From: a virus
Virus record (IMG/VR): IMGVR_UViG_3300027848_000054
Location: 1-36,960 of that record
Direction: 5' to 3' (one strand)
DNA: 36,960 nt
Below are positions 2,007-36,960 of the stretch, one piece after another. The notes under the pieces were generated by a model. That model did not search any database. It was not told the origin of the DNA and saw only the letters and a program-made list of their open reading frames with translations. A program made the translations under genes and the position numbers. Positions within the stretch are counted from its first letter, which is position 1, and every line of letters begins with the position of its first letter.

Positions 2007-3947
2007 ATGTCTTCCCCACTTTTAGACCTAGCAGTTCGGCGGCAAGTTTTGCTTGAGCGTCTCAAGTCTGGGCAAGTCCGGTCGTTTGAAAAAGCATTTC
2101 GCGAAATTGAACGGATCGTAAAGCTCGCATTTGGTGCGACCGGCGACGATCTGAACAACCAAGGGCGGAGATATTTAGCCGGGTTCCTCCGGGACCTCAA
2201 ACGGGATTTGGCGAAACCCTTGGCAACCGAAATCAAACTCTACACTCTTGAACTCGAAAAGACAGCGGGTTTGTACGCCTCGGCGGAAGCCTTTGACTTG
2301 AAGAAAACCGTTGCAGGTGTTGGGACGCTGAAAGTCCCCGACGCGGCCAAAGCTTTCAAGCGGGCGTTAGATCTCCCGATGTCCCATTCGGGCGAACTGT
2401 TGACCGACTTTATCAAGAGCTTTTCAGGCCGCGAAACTGCCCGCGTGGTTGACCGGGTGCGTCAGGGAGTGGCGCAAGGGCGAACCAATCAAGAACTTGT
2501 CAGGTCAGTGGTTGGGACAAAAGGGCGCAACTTCCGAGACGGCATTTTGGCCACCTCCAGGCGCAACGCGCAATCCATGATCCGGACGGCAACCCAACAC
2601 GTTGCAAGCTCCGCCCGGCTTGACGTTTGGGAGGCAAATCCAGACGTGGTCAAAAAATACCAATGGATCTCGACGTTAGATCGGCGCACATCTTCAGTTT
2701 GTTTCACAGGTTTAACCACCCCTCGTCCCATCGGGCAAATTTTGAACATGTTCCGTCGCACCTATCAAGGGCAAGTTTTCATCATCGCAACAGCCGCAGG
2801 CGAGCAATTCCGAGCCACGCCAAACCACCCGATATTGACGGCGGATGGTTGGAGAGCGGCCAAGGAAATCACACCAAGCGATAAGGTCTTGGACTTCACT
2901 TTTAGCGAGTTTGTCCCGGAAGGCGACTGCATAGAAATGCAACCCAGCTTTTCCGCAATCGCGGATGCGCTTTTCCATCCATCCGTTAGCGATATTGTTT
3001 CTGTAAGTCCCACGCCCGCAGATTTCCACGGCGACGGACAGAGTGGGCAAAACAAGGTCAATACTGCCAAACCCAAGCCTGAACTGGGGCGTGGTTTCAA
3101 CCCCTTCCCGATTGAGGATACCAGACACAAAACGCTCATTTGGTTGCATGATGCCGGATTTTTCACGGCTCACAGCGGCTTTGGTTCGTTGGACATCACT
3201 GGGCTTCCACCCATCCAACCCCCTAAGATCGTGCCCATGTCGCTTCAGAGCGGCGAACAAACCAGAACGACTGACCCCCAAGCGGGACAGGATTTCCGAG
3301 GGTCTGGCCCCACTTTGGAAGAGCCCAACAGCTTTGAGAGTTCGGGGGTGTTCTTGGCCCCTCGGGACGTGCTCCAAGACGCTAAGGCGCTTCAGAAAGG
3401 TGGTGACTGTGGTTGTGGTTGCGCCGAATTGCCTCCCAATTTGGTTGGCCGGGGTGCCATCGCGCCAAAGTTTCAAAATGTCATTAGTGTGGGGAGTGAG
3501 TTTGTTTCTTGCCATGTTTATAACTTTGAGACTAGTTCAGGATACTACATGGTGGGTCGTGCGCTTGTCAAGAACTGTCAGAGTTTGGACCAAAGAGACT
3601 TTGAGGTCGGGAAGGGACCAACCCCGCCAATCCATGTTCGGTGCCGGAGCACAACAATCGCGGTTATCTCTGAAGAATTCGATTTCCTGAAAGGGGGCCG
3701 GACACGCTCGGCAGAGTTCGGCCCGGTCAAAGGTGACAAATCATATTTCGATTGGCTAAAGCGCCAAAATAAAAGCGTCCAATCAGAAGCACTTGGCCCG
3801 ACCCGAGCCAAGCTATTTTCTGAGGGGGGACTTTCAGCGGAGAAATTTTCGGCTCTTCAGTTGGACAAAAATTTTGCACCTCTCACCTTGGACGAAATGC
3901 AAGCCCTTGAACCTTTGGCATTCAAGAAAGCGGGTCTATCGGGTTAA
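2007..3947 (+). CDS. MuF-like head morphogenesis protein interrupted by an intein
   Basis: The precursor is 646 residues: an N-extein of 231, an intein of 292 (residues 232-523) and a C-extein of 123. Splicing would give a 354-residue protein. The joined extein reads WISTLDRRTSSV-CQSLDQRDF, followed by PPIHVRCRSTT, the C-terminal signature of Mu gpF/SPP1 gp7-like minor head proteins (D-x-R-T-S, then P-P-x-H-x-x-C-R). These proteins associate with the portal and take part in head assembly or DNA release. The intein sits exactly before the conserved cysteine of this motif, which serves as the +1 nucleophile. The ATG at 2007 follows a TTGAAA/TTTGCT promoter-like pair. The 3' end overlaps the convergent clamp gene by 26 bases. 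Confidence 0.9.
   Translation: MSSPLLDLAVRRQVLLERLKSGQVRSFEKAFREIERIVKLAFGATGDDLNNQGRRYLAGFLRDLKRDLAKPLATEIKLYTLELEKTAGLYASAEAFDLKKTVAGVGTLKVPDAAKAFKRALDLPMSHSGELLTDFIKSFSGRETARVVDRVRQGVAQGRTNQELVRSVVGTKGRNFRDGILATSRRNAQSMIRTATQHVASSARLDVWEANPDVVKKYQWISTLDRRTSSVCFTGLTTPRPIGQILNMFRRTYQGQVFIIATAAGEQFRATPNHPILTADGWRAAKEITPSDKVLDFTFSEFVPEGDCIEMQPSFSAIADALFHPSVSDIVSVSPTPADFHGDGQSGQNKVNTAKPKPELGRGFNPFPIEDTRHKTLIWLHDAGFFTAHSGFGSLDITGLPPIQPPKIVPMSLQSGEQTRTTDPQAGQDFRGSGPTLEEPNSFESSGVFLAPRDVLQDAKALQKGGDCGCGCAELPPNLVGRGAIAPKFQNVISVGSEFVSCHVYNFETSSGYYMVGRALVKNCQSLDQRDFEVGKGPTPPIHVRCRSTTIAVISEEFDFLKGGRTRSAEFGPVKGDKSYFDWLKRQNKSVQSEALGPTRAKLFSEGGLSAEKFSALQLDKNFAPLTLDEMQALEPLAFKKAGLSG
2700..3575 (+). other. 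Intein in the MuF-like protein (292 residues), split by an antisense nuclease gene
   Basis: Protein-splicing element. Block A is CFTGLTTPRPIGQ with nucleophile Cys1. Block B is ATPNHPILTADGW, including the T-x-x-H motif. Block F is VYNFETSSGYYM. Block G is ALVKN followed by +1 Cys. The usual penultimate His of block G is Lys here. The splicing segments occupy about 80 residues at the N end and 30 at the C end. Between them lies a linker of about 180 residues with no LAGLIDADG or HNH motif and little recognisable fold in the sense direction. That linker lies opposite the leftward nuclease gene at 3515-2712. It carries a DFHGDG motif (residues 339-344 of the precursor) directly opposite the nuclease active-site glutamate. 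Confidence 0.88.
2712..3515 (-). CDS. Putative antisense homing endonuclease inside the intein (two HTH segments plus Vsr/DUF559-like nuclease)
   Basis: 267 residues on the strand opposite the intein. Residues 11-46 and 60-95 each look like a helix-turn-helix; the cores are ANQIGRQFGATTTTVTTFLKR and PSEILSRLGVSRSGLFAALKR. Residues 125-215 resemble the PD-(D/E)XK/EDxHD fold of Vsr and DUF559 proteins: NERF with Glu127, PQF with Gln144, GSIDLVLP with Asp153, and SVAVEICG with Glu164, then a basic helix (KRIRDCGKAGLHFYAV). This is the organisation expected of a DNA-binding nicking or cleaving homing enzyme. The last 70 or so residues lie opposite the splicing N-domain and may be partly non-functional read-through. 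The ATG at 3515 has no Shine-Dalgarno, like its neighbours. Codons are in exact complementary register with the sense frame. Upstream on the same strand is the clamp gene, 407 bases away, with no visible terminator between. A long antisense frame alone would prove nothing; the call rests on the domain content. Confidence 0.78.
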   Translation of the reverse strand: MARNKLTPHTNDILKLWRDGTPANQIGRQFGATTTTVTTFLKRLSVLEHVPRGQEHPRTLKAVGLFQSGARPSEILSRLGVSRSGLFAALKRHGHDLRGLDGWKPSDVQRTKAAVSREKSGIMQPNERFVSGILNREGVETTPQFRLGFGSIDLVLPTLSVAVEICGRGTYRNNIANGWMEKRIRDCGKAGLHFYAVAFRDKLAKSEVQDLIAWCDFLGRSPTIRRQYRVVWRGSELLACGCCDDENLPLIGATEHVQNLPDGTRGG

Positions 3948-4617
3948 TTTCCCGGGCTTTCTCAACGAGGTTTGCCAGCATCCCGGCCCCTATTTCGCCC
4001 GCGTCAGGGTTGAGTTTCGCGACCATCTGTGCCAACTCTTCCAAGGCTTGGAGTTTGTCATGCCTTTGCTCCTGGGGTGACTTCTCGCCCTCCTTGACTT
4101 TGACAGGCATAATCACGCCATGCCCAACGGCGACAGCTGTCTTCAGACCGTGAGGGGCCACTCGCAGCCCCGAAGAACCTTTCAGGGTCTCAATTTTCAC
4201 CACCGCCGTGCCCAAACTTTTTGCAAGTTTGGCGAGCAATTCAGCGTTGATGCAAATCGAGGCTGCGACTTCTGAGTCCTCTGCGGGAATCACCATGCGC
4301 CAATTTGGGAATTGGGTGTCAGCGCGGGGGAAGGTTCTGCCGTCTGAAAGTGTCACTTTGGCACTGTCAGAGCAATCCAGTGTGAGGTTGTCCTCGCGCT
4401 TGGCCAACTTACGGGCTTCTTTCAGGGCAGCAATGGGGATTAGCCCGGCGGTGTCCTCTTTTCCCAGATCCACCGGGGTGACCGAAATAACATGTCCACT
4501 AGTGGACACCACATTCCCAACCCCCTTTGTGATATCGAGGTATGGAGCCTCAAGGGATGGTCGGTTTTGTTTTACCGAGCAGGCAAGTTCGGTGATGTGG
4601 TCTTTGGGTAGTTTCAT
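3922..4617 (-). CDS. DnaN-like sliding clamp (shortened)
   Basis: 231 residues from the ATG at 4617; a GTG three codons upstream (4626) overlaps the promoter. Clamps encircle DNA and tether the polymerase. Two features resemble bacterial beta clamps: FPNWRMVIP near residue 104, like the FP-D-x-R-x-V-I-P segment, and GVIMPVKV near residue 168, like the V-V-M-P-M-R end. With roughly 180 folded residues plus a charged helical tail of about 50, it is much shorter than the three-domain beta clamp (about 366), so it probably has two domains and might assemble as a trimer. It is separated from the other replication genes and lies leftward between MuF and scaffold, with its own promoter. Its end overlaps MuF by 26 bases, and the antisense nuclease gene lies downstream on the same strand. 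Confidence 0.68.
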   Translation of the reverse strand: MKLPKDHITELACSVKQNRPSLEAPYLDITKGVGNVVSTSGHVISVTPVDLGKEDTAGLIPIAALKEARKLAKREDNLTLDCSDSAKVTLSDGRTFPRADTQFPNWRMVIPAEDSEVAASICINAELLAKLAKSLGTAVVKIETLKGSSGLRVAPHGLKTAVAVGHGVIMPVKVKEGEKSPQEQRHDKLQALEELAQMVAKLNPDAGEIGAGMLANLVEKAREINPIDPLS

Positions 4618-4625
4618 GGCCCGCA

Positions 4626-4654
4626 CTTAAAAACGGTTTACATTTAGCTGTCAA
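4626..4654 (-). promoter_or_regulatory. Putative leftward promoter, TTGACA-17-TTTAAG
   Basis: TTGACA (4654-4649), spacer gctaaatgtaaaccgtt, TTTAAG (4631-4626), then the clamp ATG at 4617. It would give an almost leaderless clamp message, and by read-through could supply the antisense nuclease at 3515. It is back to back with a rightward box pair at 4662-4689. Confidence 0.6.
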
Positions 4655-5479: not shown

Positions 5480-6649
5480 ATGGCAAATTCTGTCACCCTC
5501 ACAAACCTCGCCCCCGAAATCTACAAGGCAATGGACACGGTTTCCCGTGAAATTGTCGGTGCAATTCCGGGCGCAATGCTCAACACCGCCGATTCAAACG
5601 GTGTAAACGCCGCCTCTTTTGGCGACAAAGTGAAGTCCATGCGGACGCCCAAGACCACCCCGACCAGTTCGTTCACCCCGGCCATGACGCCGTCTGATGC
5701 GACGGATAAAAACGCCACGTTTGACGAGTTCGCGTTGGACCAAATCGCGAAAGACGATTTGCCCCTTTTGGGTGAGACGGTTCGCCGTCTCAACCAAGCG
5801 GGCGGACAAGCTGAAACATTCCGGACGGACACTTTTGCGCAAATCATGCGCGGTGTGGTCAACCAGATGGAGGGCTACCTTGCGGGTGTCCTCTACAAGG
5901 GTGCTTCCCGCGCTGTCGGAACCGCCGGGACCGCTCCTTTTGCGTCCAACCTGACCGTTCTGACCGCCGCCAAGAAAGCCCTTTTGGACAACGGCGCGCC
6001 CCAAGATAATCAGTATTCCTTTGTGATGGATACGACTGCCGGAATGAATTTCCGCAACTTGACCAATCTCCAAAAGGTCAACGAGGCCGGGACGGCGGAT
6101 CTGCTCCGCAACGGATCGCTGATGAACACATTGGGGTTCTTCCTGCGTGAATCTGCGGGCATTGCATCCCACACCAAGGGCACGGGCACGCTCTACGATG
6201 CTAATGGTGCCGTTGCAGTTGGTGATACCACTATCACCCTTGACGGCGGAACCGTAGGGGCTACCGGCATCACAGCCGGTGATGTGGTCACGTTTGCCGG
6301 TGATGACAACAATTACGTTGTCGGAACTGGTCTGGCTGCTGGTGGTGGTGACATTGTTCTCAATCGCCCCGGCGCTCAGGAAATCGTTGCTGACACCACG
6401 GAATTGACCATTGGTGATAGCTTCGCGGCCAACGTCGCGTTCCACCGTTCGGCCGTTGAGTTCGCCGCCCGTTCCGCCGATATGGGCCAGGACGCAGCGG
6501 TTGAAGTGTTGGATGTCATTGACCCGGTCTCGGGAATCCCCTTCCAATTCCGCCGTTACGCGGGCGAGGGCATGAGCAAAATCATGGTCGTGATTTACTA
6601 CGGGGCCAAGGTTTGGAAAAGTGAAAACGTGGTTTTGGCCATGGGATAA
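5480..6649 (+). CDS. Major capsid protein, P22 coat-like
   Basis: 389 residues, starting ATG at 5480 after aaaacatc. It looks like the P22 gp5 type of HK97-fold coat. The N-terminal part runs from MANSVTLTNLAPEIYKAMD through an ETVRRLNQAG segment. A helical middle contains MEGYLAGVLYKGASRAVG. A glycine- and threonine-rich insertion domain follows at about residues 235-310 (DTTITLDGG, GDVVTFAGDDNNYVV), as in P22, where this domain decorates the capsid surface. The C-terminal part (FRRYAGEGMSKIMVVIYYGAKVW) returns to the core. A strong terminator follows at once, so the coat gene ends a transcription unit with the scaffold. The Ala/Gly-rich composition and uniform codons suit a highly expressed protein. 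Confidence 0.9.
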   Translation: MANSVTLTNLAPEIYKAMDTVSREIVGAIPGAMLNTADSNGVNAASFGDKVKSMRTPKTTPTSSFTPAMTPSDATDKNATFDEFALDQIAKDDLPLLGETVRRLNQAGGQAETFRTDTFAQIMRGVVNQMEGYLAGVLYKGASRAVGTAGTAPFASNLTVLTAAKKALLDNGAPQDNQYSFVMDTTAGMNFRNLTNLQKVNEAGTADLLRNGSLMNTLGFFLRESAGIASHTKGTGTLYDANGAVAVGDTTITLDGGTVGATGITAGDVVTFAGDDNNYVVGTGLAAGGGDIVLNRPGAQEIVADTTELTIGDSFAANVAFHRSAVEFAARSADMGQDAAVEVLDVIDPVSGIPFQFRRYAGEGMSKIMVVIYYGAKVWKSENVVLAMG

Positions 6650-35090: not shown

Positions 35091-36960
35091 TGGGTCAAAA
35101 GCTCGTTTGGACTCCCTTGCCCGGTTCGCAGGAATTGGCAATGACCGCTCCGGTCTCCCACATTCTGCACGAAGGAAGCCGGGGGCCGGGTAAGACTGAT
35201 GGCCAATTGATGCGGTTCCGCAAAACCGTTGGTCAAGGATACGGCGCGTTTTGGCGCGGGATTATCTTTGACAAAAGATACAAGAATTTGGACGACATAG
35301 TTGCTAAGTCCAAGCGGTGGTTCCCCCAAATTGGGCAGGGCGCGAAGTGGTTGTCCTCAAAATCAGATTACAAATGGGTTTGGCCAACTGGTGAGGAATT
35401 GCTTTTCCGTCACATGGAAAAAGAAAGTGATTATGACCAATATCACGGCCACGAATATCCATATATTGCTTTTAACGAGCTGACTAAATGGCCCACGTCC
35501 GCTTGTTATGACAAGATGATGTCCTGCAACCGTTCGCCCTTTGTCCCGTCGGAACACTCGCCGGATCTTAAAAACCCTCTGCCGGAAATCCCGTTGACGG
35601 TGTATTCAACGACCAATCCGCACGGGGTGGGACATAATTGGGTCAAGCGGCGGTTCATCGACCCCGCCCCGGCTGGCCAAGTGGTCCGGAAAACGACGCG
35701 GGTTTTCAATCCACGGACCCAAAAAGAGCAGGACATTGTCAAAACCCAAGTCCGCCTTTTCGGGTCGTATCGGGAAAACAAATACCTTCCCCCTGAATAC
35801 ATTGCGGACTTGATGGGGATTTCCGACCCCAATTTACGGGCCGCGTGGCTCGAAGGGAATTGGGACATTACCGCCGGAGGCGCCTTAGATGATCTATGGA
35901 AGCAGGACGTGCATGTCTTGCCCCGGTTCGTGGTGCCCAAGAATTGGCGGGTCACAAGGTCATTCGACTGGGGCTCAACCCACCCTTTTAGCGTTGGATT
36001 CTGGGCAATCGCCAACGGCGAGGAAGTCGAATTTGAAGACGGTAAAACCCGGACGTTTGTGAGAGGCTCACGAATCCGCATTGACGAAATCTACGGTGCC
36101 AGAATCCTTGCCGGTGAGCAGTTCGGACACAACCAAGGGCGCAAACTGAGCGCGCGGAAAGTTGCCCTTGAAATCAAAGAGAGGGAGTCAGATTTGAAAT
36201 TGATGGGGTATATCCAGACCACCCCAGAACCGGGACCGGCGGACAATCAAATTTCCAACGTCAACGAAGACGAAACCGCGTCTATTGCATCAATAATGGC
36301 CAAGGAGGGCATCACTTGGACCAAGTCGGACAAGTCAGCGGGCTCCCGGAAGATGGGCTTGGAGTTAGTCCGCAACGCCCTCGAGGCCTCGCTGGACGGG
36401 GAAGGTCCGGGGCTTTATGTCACAAAAAACTGCAAAGCATTTATCGAGACTGTGCCAACCCTCCCACGGGATGAGGATAACCCCGAGGATGTTGCGACCG
36501 AATCCGAAGATCACTGCTTTGTTGCCGGGACGATGGTCAAAACCCCAAATGGTGACACACCAATAGAGCAATTATCAGAGGGGGATTTGGTCTTGACGCG
36601 GCAAGGATTCAAGTTCATTACCGAAACCCACAAGACAAAACCAGTCCCGGTGTTCGGAGTGGAAACCGGATCCGGTCGCCTAGTCGGGACAGGGAACCAC
36701 CCGGTTTATGTTGCGGGGCGCGGCTGGAAAAGGGTTGACCTTTTGGTGAAAGGTGACTCGCTGATGACAGCTGCGAGCAATCCAACTTGCGTCATAGACG
36801 TAAAACCAGCGGGGTTTGAAGCCGTTTATAATATCACGGTTTCGGACTGCCACGAATACTACGCAAATGGTTTCTTAGTCCACAATTGTTATGACGAAAC
36901 TAGGTATCTGATATTAGACGCCAAGCCGGTCTTTGCAAATTCCGTGAAGGTCAAATTTGC
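35090..36960 (+). CDS. Terminase large subunit with intein (runs off the window)
   Basis: 623 residues visible. The ATG at 35090 overlaps the previous stop; the protein begins MGQKLVWTPLPGSQELAMTA. Walker A is GSRGPGKT (29-36). YPYIAFNELTKW is the Walker B-like segment with Glu130, where the usual Asp-Glu is Asn-Glu. FDWGSTHPF starts the RNase H-like nuclease. The mini-intein interrupts ESEDH-CYDETRY, beside the third acidic residue of the nuclease. After the intein, 24 C-extein residues remain before the edge. This ATPase-nuclease cuts and packs DNA. Confidence 0.93.
   Translation, partial: MGQKLVWTPLPGSQELAMTAPVSHILHEGSRGPGKTDGQLMRFRKTVGQGYGAFWRGIIFDKRYKNLDDIVAKSKRWFPQIGQGAKWLSSKSDYKWVWPTGEELLFRHMEKESDYDQYHGHEYPYIAFNELTKWPTSACYDKMMSCNRSPFVPSEHSPDLKNPLPEIPLTVYSTTNPHGVGHNWVKRRFIDPAPAGQVVRKTTRVFNPRTQKEQDIVKTQVRLFGSYRENKYLPPEYIADLMGISDPNLRAAWLEGNWDITAGGALDDLWKQDVHVLPRFVVPKNWRVTRSFDWGSTHPFSVGFWAIANGEEVEFEDGKTRTFVRGSRIRIDEIYGARILAGEQFGHNQGRKLSARKVALEIKERESDLKLMGYIQTTPEPGPADNQISNVNEDETASIASIMAKEGITWTKSDKSAGSRKMGLELVRNALEASLDGEGPGLYVTKNCKAFIETVPTLPRDEDNPEDVATESEDHCFVAGTMVKTPNGDTPIEQLSEGDLVLTRQGFKFITETHKTKPVPVFGVETGSGRLVGTGNHPVYVAGRGWKRVDLLVKGDSLMTAASNPTCVIDVKPAGFEAVYNITVSDCHEYYANGFLVHNCYDETRYLILDAKPVFANSVKVKF
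36515..36886 (+). other. Mini-intein in the large terminase (124 residues)
   Basis: Block A is CFVAGTMVKTPNGDTPIEQL (Cys1). Block B includes GTGNHPVYV (x-x-N-H-P). Block F/G is VYNITVSDCHEYYANGFLVH followed by Asn and +1 Cys, with the normal His-Asn-Cys end. It has no endonuclease domain. All splicing blocks are intact, so splicing should rebuild the nuclease motif DHCYDETRY. Confidence 0.92.

Follow-up and report, generated by a model that had tools for sequence, protein, structure and literature searches.

A predicted homing endonuclease gene lies antisense, codon on codon, within a phage MuF intein

An intein in a phage head morphogenesis gene appears to share its DNA with its own homing endonuclease, read from the opposite strand. 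In the window (the whole stretch analyzed here, 36,960 nucleotides of viral DNA, IMG/VR record IMGVR_UViG_3300027848_000054), we consider it highly probable that the two are separate opposite-strand genes superimposed codon on codon on the same DNA, with independent expression and with homing by cutting of intein-less MuF genes. Sequence comparison places the antisense frame beyond chance by its conservation pattern, by the near absence of antisense stops across the family, and by nuclease homology. The length of the reading frame was rejected as evidence for a gene, because opposite the capsid gene in the same window, and in the same register, the antisense frame stays open for 351 codons.

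Results and Discussion

An Intein and an Antisense Gene Occupy the Same DNA

The features on which the arrangement rests are as follows.

2007..3947, plus strand: MuF-like head morphogenesis gene, the intein host (phrog_241, Phage_Mu_F)
2700..3575, plus strand: MuF intein, Cys232-Asn523, 292 aa, then Cys+1 (Intein_splicing, TIGR01445; same-site alignment with E. coli phage inteins)
2712..3515, minus strand: predicted homing endonuclease gene of 267 codons, antisense to the intein and with ends close to those of the intein (selection, fold, and profile evidence)
3513..3515, minus strand: ATG start codon, which on the sense strand reads CAT, the block-F His codon
3024..3035, both strands: FHGD in the sense frame (residues 340-343) opposite VAVE in the antisense frame (residues 161-164), the predicted catalytic strand

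The host gene is identified by matches to phrog_241 (E = 2.8e-104) and Phage_Mu_F (1.4e-5). Its insertion carries the N-terminal splicing blocks A and B (nucleophile Cys1 at C232; block B TPNHP at 2817-2831) and the C-terminal blocks F and G (block F HVYNF at 3513-3527; terminus VKN/C), and matches TIGR01445 (2.6e-4) and Intein_splicing (7.5e-6), both slightly below the curated cut-offs. By these blocks the element is an intein, which would be expected to splice. Domain and profile searches of the middle of the intein in the sense frame matched no endonuclease family. Elsewhere in the same phage, the terminase large subunit gene contains a 124-aa mini-intein (Cys476-Asn599, 36515-36886, plus strand) without a substantial antisense ORF, and a 234-aa ORF at 3922-4626 (minus strand), without a Pfam match, lies near the place of the annotated DNA polymerase III sliding clamp of phage Snoke.

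On the opposite strand, the ORF at 2712-3515 starts with an ATG at 3515, ends with a stop at 2712-2714, and has 267 codons for 267 residues, exactly as a reading of the sequence alone had given; that reading's proposal of a separate gene set head-on against its own intein is supported. It runs from the block-F histidine to at most five codons from Cys1, so that both genes are nearly co-terminal. Sense and antisense codons coincide exactly (register 0), which makes sense position 1 the antisense position 3. The VAVE strand holding E164 is the exact reverse complement of the sense motif FHGD, and conserved residues of the sense linker thus mirror the nuclease. A further ORF of 317 aa (5594-6547, minus strand), opposite the major capsid gene, is probably due to chance; for ORF length it provides a negative control.

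The Antisense Product Is a Predicted Vsr-Like Nuclease

The antisense protein divides into four segments.

3384..3503, minus strand: helix-turn-helix unit 1, residues 5-44 (HTH_7/GerE sub-threshold; three helices, 7-43, in the model)
3240..3347, minus strand: helix-turn-helix unit 2, residues 57-92 (HTH_23 above the Pfam cut-off; helices 57-92 in the model)
2856..3143, minus strand: predicted Vsr/DUF559/EDxHD-type nuclease core, residues 125-220, with E127, D153, E164, and R183 (profile, model, Foldseek)
2715..2813, minus strand: low-confidence C-terminal tail, residues 235-267, over intein block A (pLDDT below 50; tail stops in several relatives)

Pfam and NCBIfam searches with the window protein alone returned helix-turn-helix matches only; the nuclease emerged with a family profile. 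This was built from an alignment of 54 relatives (A6); another alignment, A3, had too much diversity for a pattern scan, for which subsets were used. Within A6, D153 and E164 are invariant and E127, A162, and R183 are conserved in at least 90% of members. The profile matches the catalytic domain of I-Bth0305I (3r3p, E = 2.2e-6), a DUF559-type nuclease (3hrl, 1.4e-5), and, in the helix-turn-helix region, 2lvs. Among the individual members, 24/54 match MTES_1575 and 4/54 match DUF559 in Pfam, these nuclease matches lying below curated cut-offs.

Structure prediction points the same way. The AlphaFold2 model of the window protein (m902f78c1e18d; pLDDT 78.8 overall, about 90 in the core) shows two helix-turn-helix units together with an alpha-beta-beta-beta-alpha-beta core, both with high confidence, and 33 low-confidence residues at the end. 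A Foldseek search with the model places Vsr (1cw0) first with probability 1.00 and also lists I-Bth0305I, with weak E-values (best 0.016). Of the EDxHD signature, the window protein keeps E127 and D153; after the strand many members read EVFGGGWH where the window reads EICGRGTY, and the HD appears not to be kept. By sequence and modeled fold, the protein belongs with the Vsr/EDxHD relationship and is a predicted enzyme. The sequence-only reading had described two helix-turn-helix segments and a Vsr/DUF559-like core with E127, D153, and E164. The residues are as described, both segments appear in the model, and the profile search and structure prediction that it had proposed as checks found similarity to nucleases (3r3p, 3hrl, and Vsr 1cw0).

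The Arrangement Is Widespread and Bears Marks of Recent Homing

The same layout recurs in many phages. Inteins of E. coli phages occupy the same insertion site as the window intein, as their alignment indicates, and at a second MuF site (HPN/C...N/CRC) the same antisense gene is found in inteins of Salmonella, Pantoea, Gordonia, Vibrio, Klebsiella, Cronobacter, Edwardsiella, and Aggregatibacter phages. Among IMG/VR loci found by nuclease homology, 103/104 have the gene antisense to an intein (101 with both intein ends, 2 more with the N end), and in 99 of the 104 the intein lies within a single open sense ORF. A further scan found at least 566 relatives. Classification of 80 loci, 79 of them new from that scan together with L236, gave antisense placement in register 0 for every one, some contigs recurring between the two scans. 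The layout extends to cultured phages and prophages. Nine further loci, from four phage records and five bacterial contigs, all agree; one of the nine is of the LAGLIDADG type described below, in another the contig stops before the C end, and the bacterial scan was narrow, with a single usable pattern and 5 loci. Register 0 holds in every intact case; the two departures in the 104-locus set, L029 and L117, have broken sense frames. Nor is the cassette confined to MuF, as the same intein and antisense nuclease split dCMP deaminase at the PCxxC of the active site in L014:2492-3304 (minus strand) and L236:3001-3780 (plus strand). The sequence-only reading had suggested aligning MuF inteins from related phages; these share the antisense layout, with changes at antisense third positions (see below).

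An unrelated enzyme occurs in the same layout. Nine records, from Gordonia phages Lennon, SchottB, and their relatives, have a different intein at a MuF site, and its antisense gene encodes a LAGLIDADG enzyme (I-MsoI match, 1.3e-3; phrog_5046, 2e-15).

L024:2486-3073, minus strand: antisense LAGLIDADG gene of Gordonia phage Lennon, in an unrelated intein at a MuF site

Codon changes in the gene's own frame number 16/6/51, and a search of IMG/VR with the Lennon enzyme found no relatives. Since unrelated Vsr-like and LAGLIDADG enzymes sit in the same layout, sequence comparison suggests that the layout probably arose at least twice.

The distribution of occupied and empty sites suggests mobility. 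In E. coli Kagunavirus phages the window-type site is occupied in only four records, and the site is empty in many relatives that are 89-93% identical; the empty junction was confirmed in vB_VIPECOTPH05A. Between KMB36 and BEU35 the intein differs at 3/894 nt (99.7% identical) and the flanking exteins at 112/1074 (about 10% diverged). Salmonella relatives include empty alleles with up to 96.7% extein identity. These intein-less alleles come from E. coli and Salmonella relatives; for the window's own phage, none was found. A near-identical intein within diverged exteins is the mark of recent homing, in which the intein would have been copied after cleavage, and together with the empty sites in close relatives it gives the nuclease the homing context that had been proposed for it.

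A real nuclease could nevertheless serve chiefly in competition with, or exclusion of, intein-less phages, or in regulating the late operon, homing then being secondary. Homing enzymes can exclude co-infecting phages, and the helix-turn-helix units could bind near the gene's own promoter. There is also a sole exception to the antisense layout, L104:3492-4358 (plus strand), a free-standing nuclease copy that is convergent with a MuF gene free of any intein, its HPGCRC intact, and that overlaps the end of this MuF gene; the copy is possibly an intermediate or a relic. However, near-complete confinement to inteins and the pattern of mobility fit homing best, and exclusion would follow from the same activity. 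We regard a primary role in exclusion or regulation as unlikely, albeit the best placed of the alternatives to homing.

Expression Signals Lie Within Intein Blocks F and G

The start codon of the antisense gene is written in the splicing domain. The block-F His codon is CAT in 63 cases and CAC in 6, compared with 195:290 in the exteins (P = 8e-17), and because sense block F has this CAT, most relatives have an antisense ATG. Four residues past this His, Leu is encoded by CTC in 51/61 cases, compared with 647/2990 (P = 4e-24), and this choice writes the GAG of an antisense ribosome site. Both P values overstate independence, as the sequences are related.

We compared 71 inteins with synonymous shuffles that preserve the sense protein. 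Ribosome-site motifs occur in 51/71 (null 10.7), TATAAT in 29/71 (8.4) and its extended form TGnTATAAT in 14 (1.4), TTGACA in 18/71 (2.6), and the full TTGACA-N16-18-TATAAT in 7 (0.2). The corresponding element in the window is the following.

3542..3571, minus strand: putative sigma-70-type promoter TTGACA-N18-TAGTAT inside block G (above shuffles for the family only)

In the window itself this promoter (10/12) is no better than its own synonymous shuffles, 35/100 of which are equally good, and no clear Shine-Dalgarno sequence was found ahead of the window gene (CTCAAAGTTATAAACATG), its ribosome site being weak. In four conventional inteins that could be parsed, a small and unevenly parsed control set, block F has no His and the antisense frame is interrupted. 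Judged from codon choice, conserved intein codons across the family therefore contain the start and ribosome-site signals, and the promoter may be used.

Both Strands Evolve as Coding Sequence

Comparison of the window with its closest independent relative, L006, indicates which frame is constrained. In the intein middle, differences fall at sense positions 1/2/3 in the numbers 83/24/54, and identity is higher in the antisense frame (0.74) than in the sense frame (0.54). In the N-extein the counts are 106/71/146 and the order of identities is reversed. This pair alone gives P = 3e-5. Over 17 non-overlapping intein pairs, the counts are 1182/446/850 in the intein middle and 1417/1016/2329 in the N-extein (chi-squared P about 4e-54); position 1 exceeds position 3 in the intein middle in 17/17 pairs, the opposite holds for the N-extein in 17/17, and identity in the intein middle over these pairs is 0.61 for sense and 0.72 for antisense. 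Changes in the intein middle thus concentrate at antisense third positions, which argues that the antisense frame is under selection. The sequence-only reading had named synonymous changes concentrated in the antisense frame as evidence against a gene. That pattern is what we find, yet it favors a gene, because the tolerated changes are silent for the antisense protein and not for the sense protein.

In 90 non-redundant inteins, sense codons that would place a stop in the antisense frame (TTA, CTA, TCA) number 8, compared with 565 expected from extein usage; 7 of the 8 come from L079, in which a different intein was the one measured, and the remaining 1 comes from a broken nuclease gene. Sense stops number 0 compared with 390 expected from the nuclease frame, a zero that follows from requiring an open sense ORF. 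On these comparisons both strands of the intein are coding, with both frames under selection.

Two loci, L065:533-1231 and L066:3501-4199, have a stop in the middle of the nuclease frame with the sense intein frame intact, an apparent decay of the nuclease alone. Homing genes decay cyclically, and the gene in the window phage could likewise be a decayed relic, open by chance or by way of the sense frame, as these two loci and the weak ribosome site of the window allow. Its catalytic residues are intact, however, it is better conserved against L006 than the sense frame is, and a separate contig, L005, carries an identical copy. We judge decay improbable, slightly more so than a primary role in exclusion.

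More radically, the antisense ORF could be a by-product of sense coding, produced by the complementary-codon register in a GC-moderate genome, and no gene at all. The chance run opposite the capsid gene is of this kind, and the sense frame here is also kept open. Against this stand the antisense third-position changes in every pair, the deficit of antisense stops, the homology to I-Bth0305I and DUF559, and the enrichment of start, ribosome site, and promoter over synonymous shuffles. These refute a by-product for the family, and for the window the L006 comparison agrees; we give it very little credence. Least credible of all, to the point of being nearly negligible, is the reading as a conventional intein whose endonuclease is in frame and whose antisense signal is secondary. 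Classical intein endonucleases are indeed in frame, but the sense middle matches no endonuclease family and is less conserved than the antisense frame across the 17 pairs.

A Model for Independent Expression and Homing

In the arrangement that we favor, the intein and its antisense homing endonuclease would act as follows. The sense strand would yield a MuF precursor whose intein splices itself out of the capsid protein. The antisense gene would be transcribed from the block-G promoter and translated from the block-F ATG, independently of late MuF transcription. Its product may bind the empty MuF site through the two helix-turn-helix units and cut it with the Vsr-like core, and repair would then copy the intein together with the nuclease gene into the cut allele. 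A plausible advantage is that, with MuF being a late structural gene, a promoter on the antisense strand would make expression of the nuclease independent of both late transcription and the splicing fold.

Such an arrangement would break the textbook rule that an intein homing endonuclease is read together with the splicing protein, and nearly every base of the intein would encode two proteins. It would account for the apparent lack of an endonuclease in MuF inteins and suggests a route by which inteins invade late genes. Hundreds of phage loci with a long, naturally selected sense/antisense overlap could be used to study two proteins in complementary codons. They also serve as a warning that antisense nuclease genes are missed by annotation pipelines.

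Comparison with Known Systems

Classical intein endonucleases (LAGLIDADG, HNH) are read in frame with the splicing protein. The elements described here share with such inteins the Cys1/Asn/Cys+1 splicing blocks, the invasion of conserved sites, and a present/absent distribution. They differ in that the nuclease is a separate gene on the opposite strand, the constrained frame is the antisense one, the sense linker reflects the nuclease, and the block-F His supplies the start codon.

Few nuclease families are linked to inteins, and the EDxHD/Vsr-like homing endonucleases, exemplified by I-Bth0305I, are among them; they belong to the same superfamily as the window protein by profile and fold, with a shared homing context and phage hosts. 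To our knowledge, their known members are sense-strand intron ORFs or free-standing genes between split-intein halves, whereas the present gene lies on the antisense strand, over an intein that is whole and contiguous, and the window protein appears to lack the HD signature. Dassa and colleagues reportedly treated the family in 2009 as one of split-intein loci.

Some rDNA group I introns carry homing endonuclease genes that are likewise antisense to the host gene and inside a splicing element. A group I intron is an RNA splicing element, however, whose host frame need not stay open, and it therefore involves no dual protein coding.

The nearest described idea is the ShiLan insertion, in which an HNH is hidden in the third frame of the same strand without a splicing domain (Arsenault et al. 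2025, PMC11855218). The likeness lies in an insertion that leaves the host frame open, a homing nuclease encoded in a different frame, and recent homing; the present case differs in its opposite strand, full intein, and embedded promoter and ribosome site. For overlapping frames the same paper cites Gosselin et al. (bioRxiv 2025, doi 10.1101/2025.01.02.630785) on actinophage inteins of "non-canonical architecture," a preprint whose scope takes in the Gordonia MuF inteins considered here and which may already describe part of the arrangement. On these phages, PMC11162368 mentions only an intein; the Snoke record has the intein only, and in the PK2 record the antisense ORF is annotated as hypothetical. 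The sequence-only reading had singled out the layout as a candidate for a new genetic arrangement. The open literature we searched holds no earlier report of an antisense endonuclease in an intein, which supports that view, and priority is uncertain given the possible overlap with Gosselin et al. 2025. Set against these known systems, we lean modestly toward the view that the inteins form a widespread, previously undescribed dual-coded class, in which the opposite strand is a complete codon-on-codon nuclease gene with its signals in blocks G and F, with at least two origins and with colonization of late genes thereby enabled.
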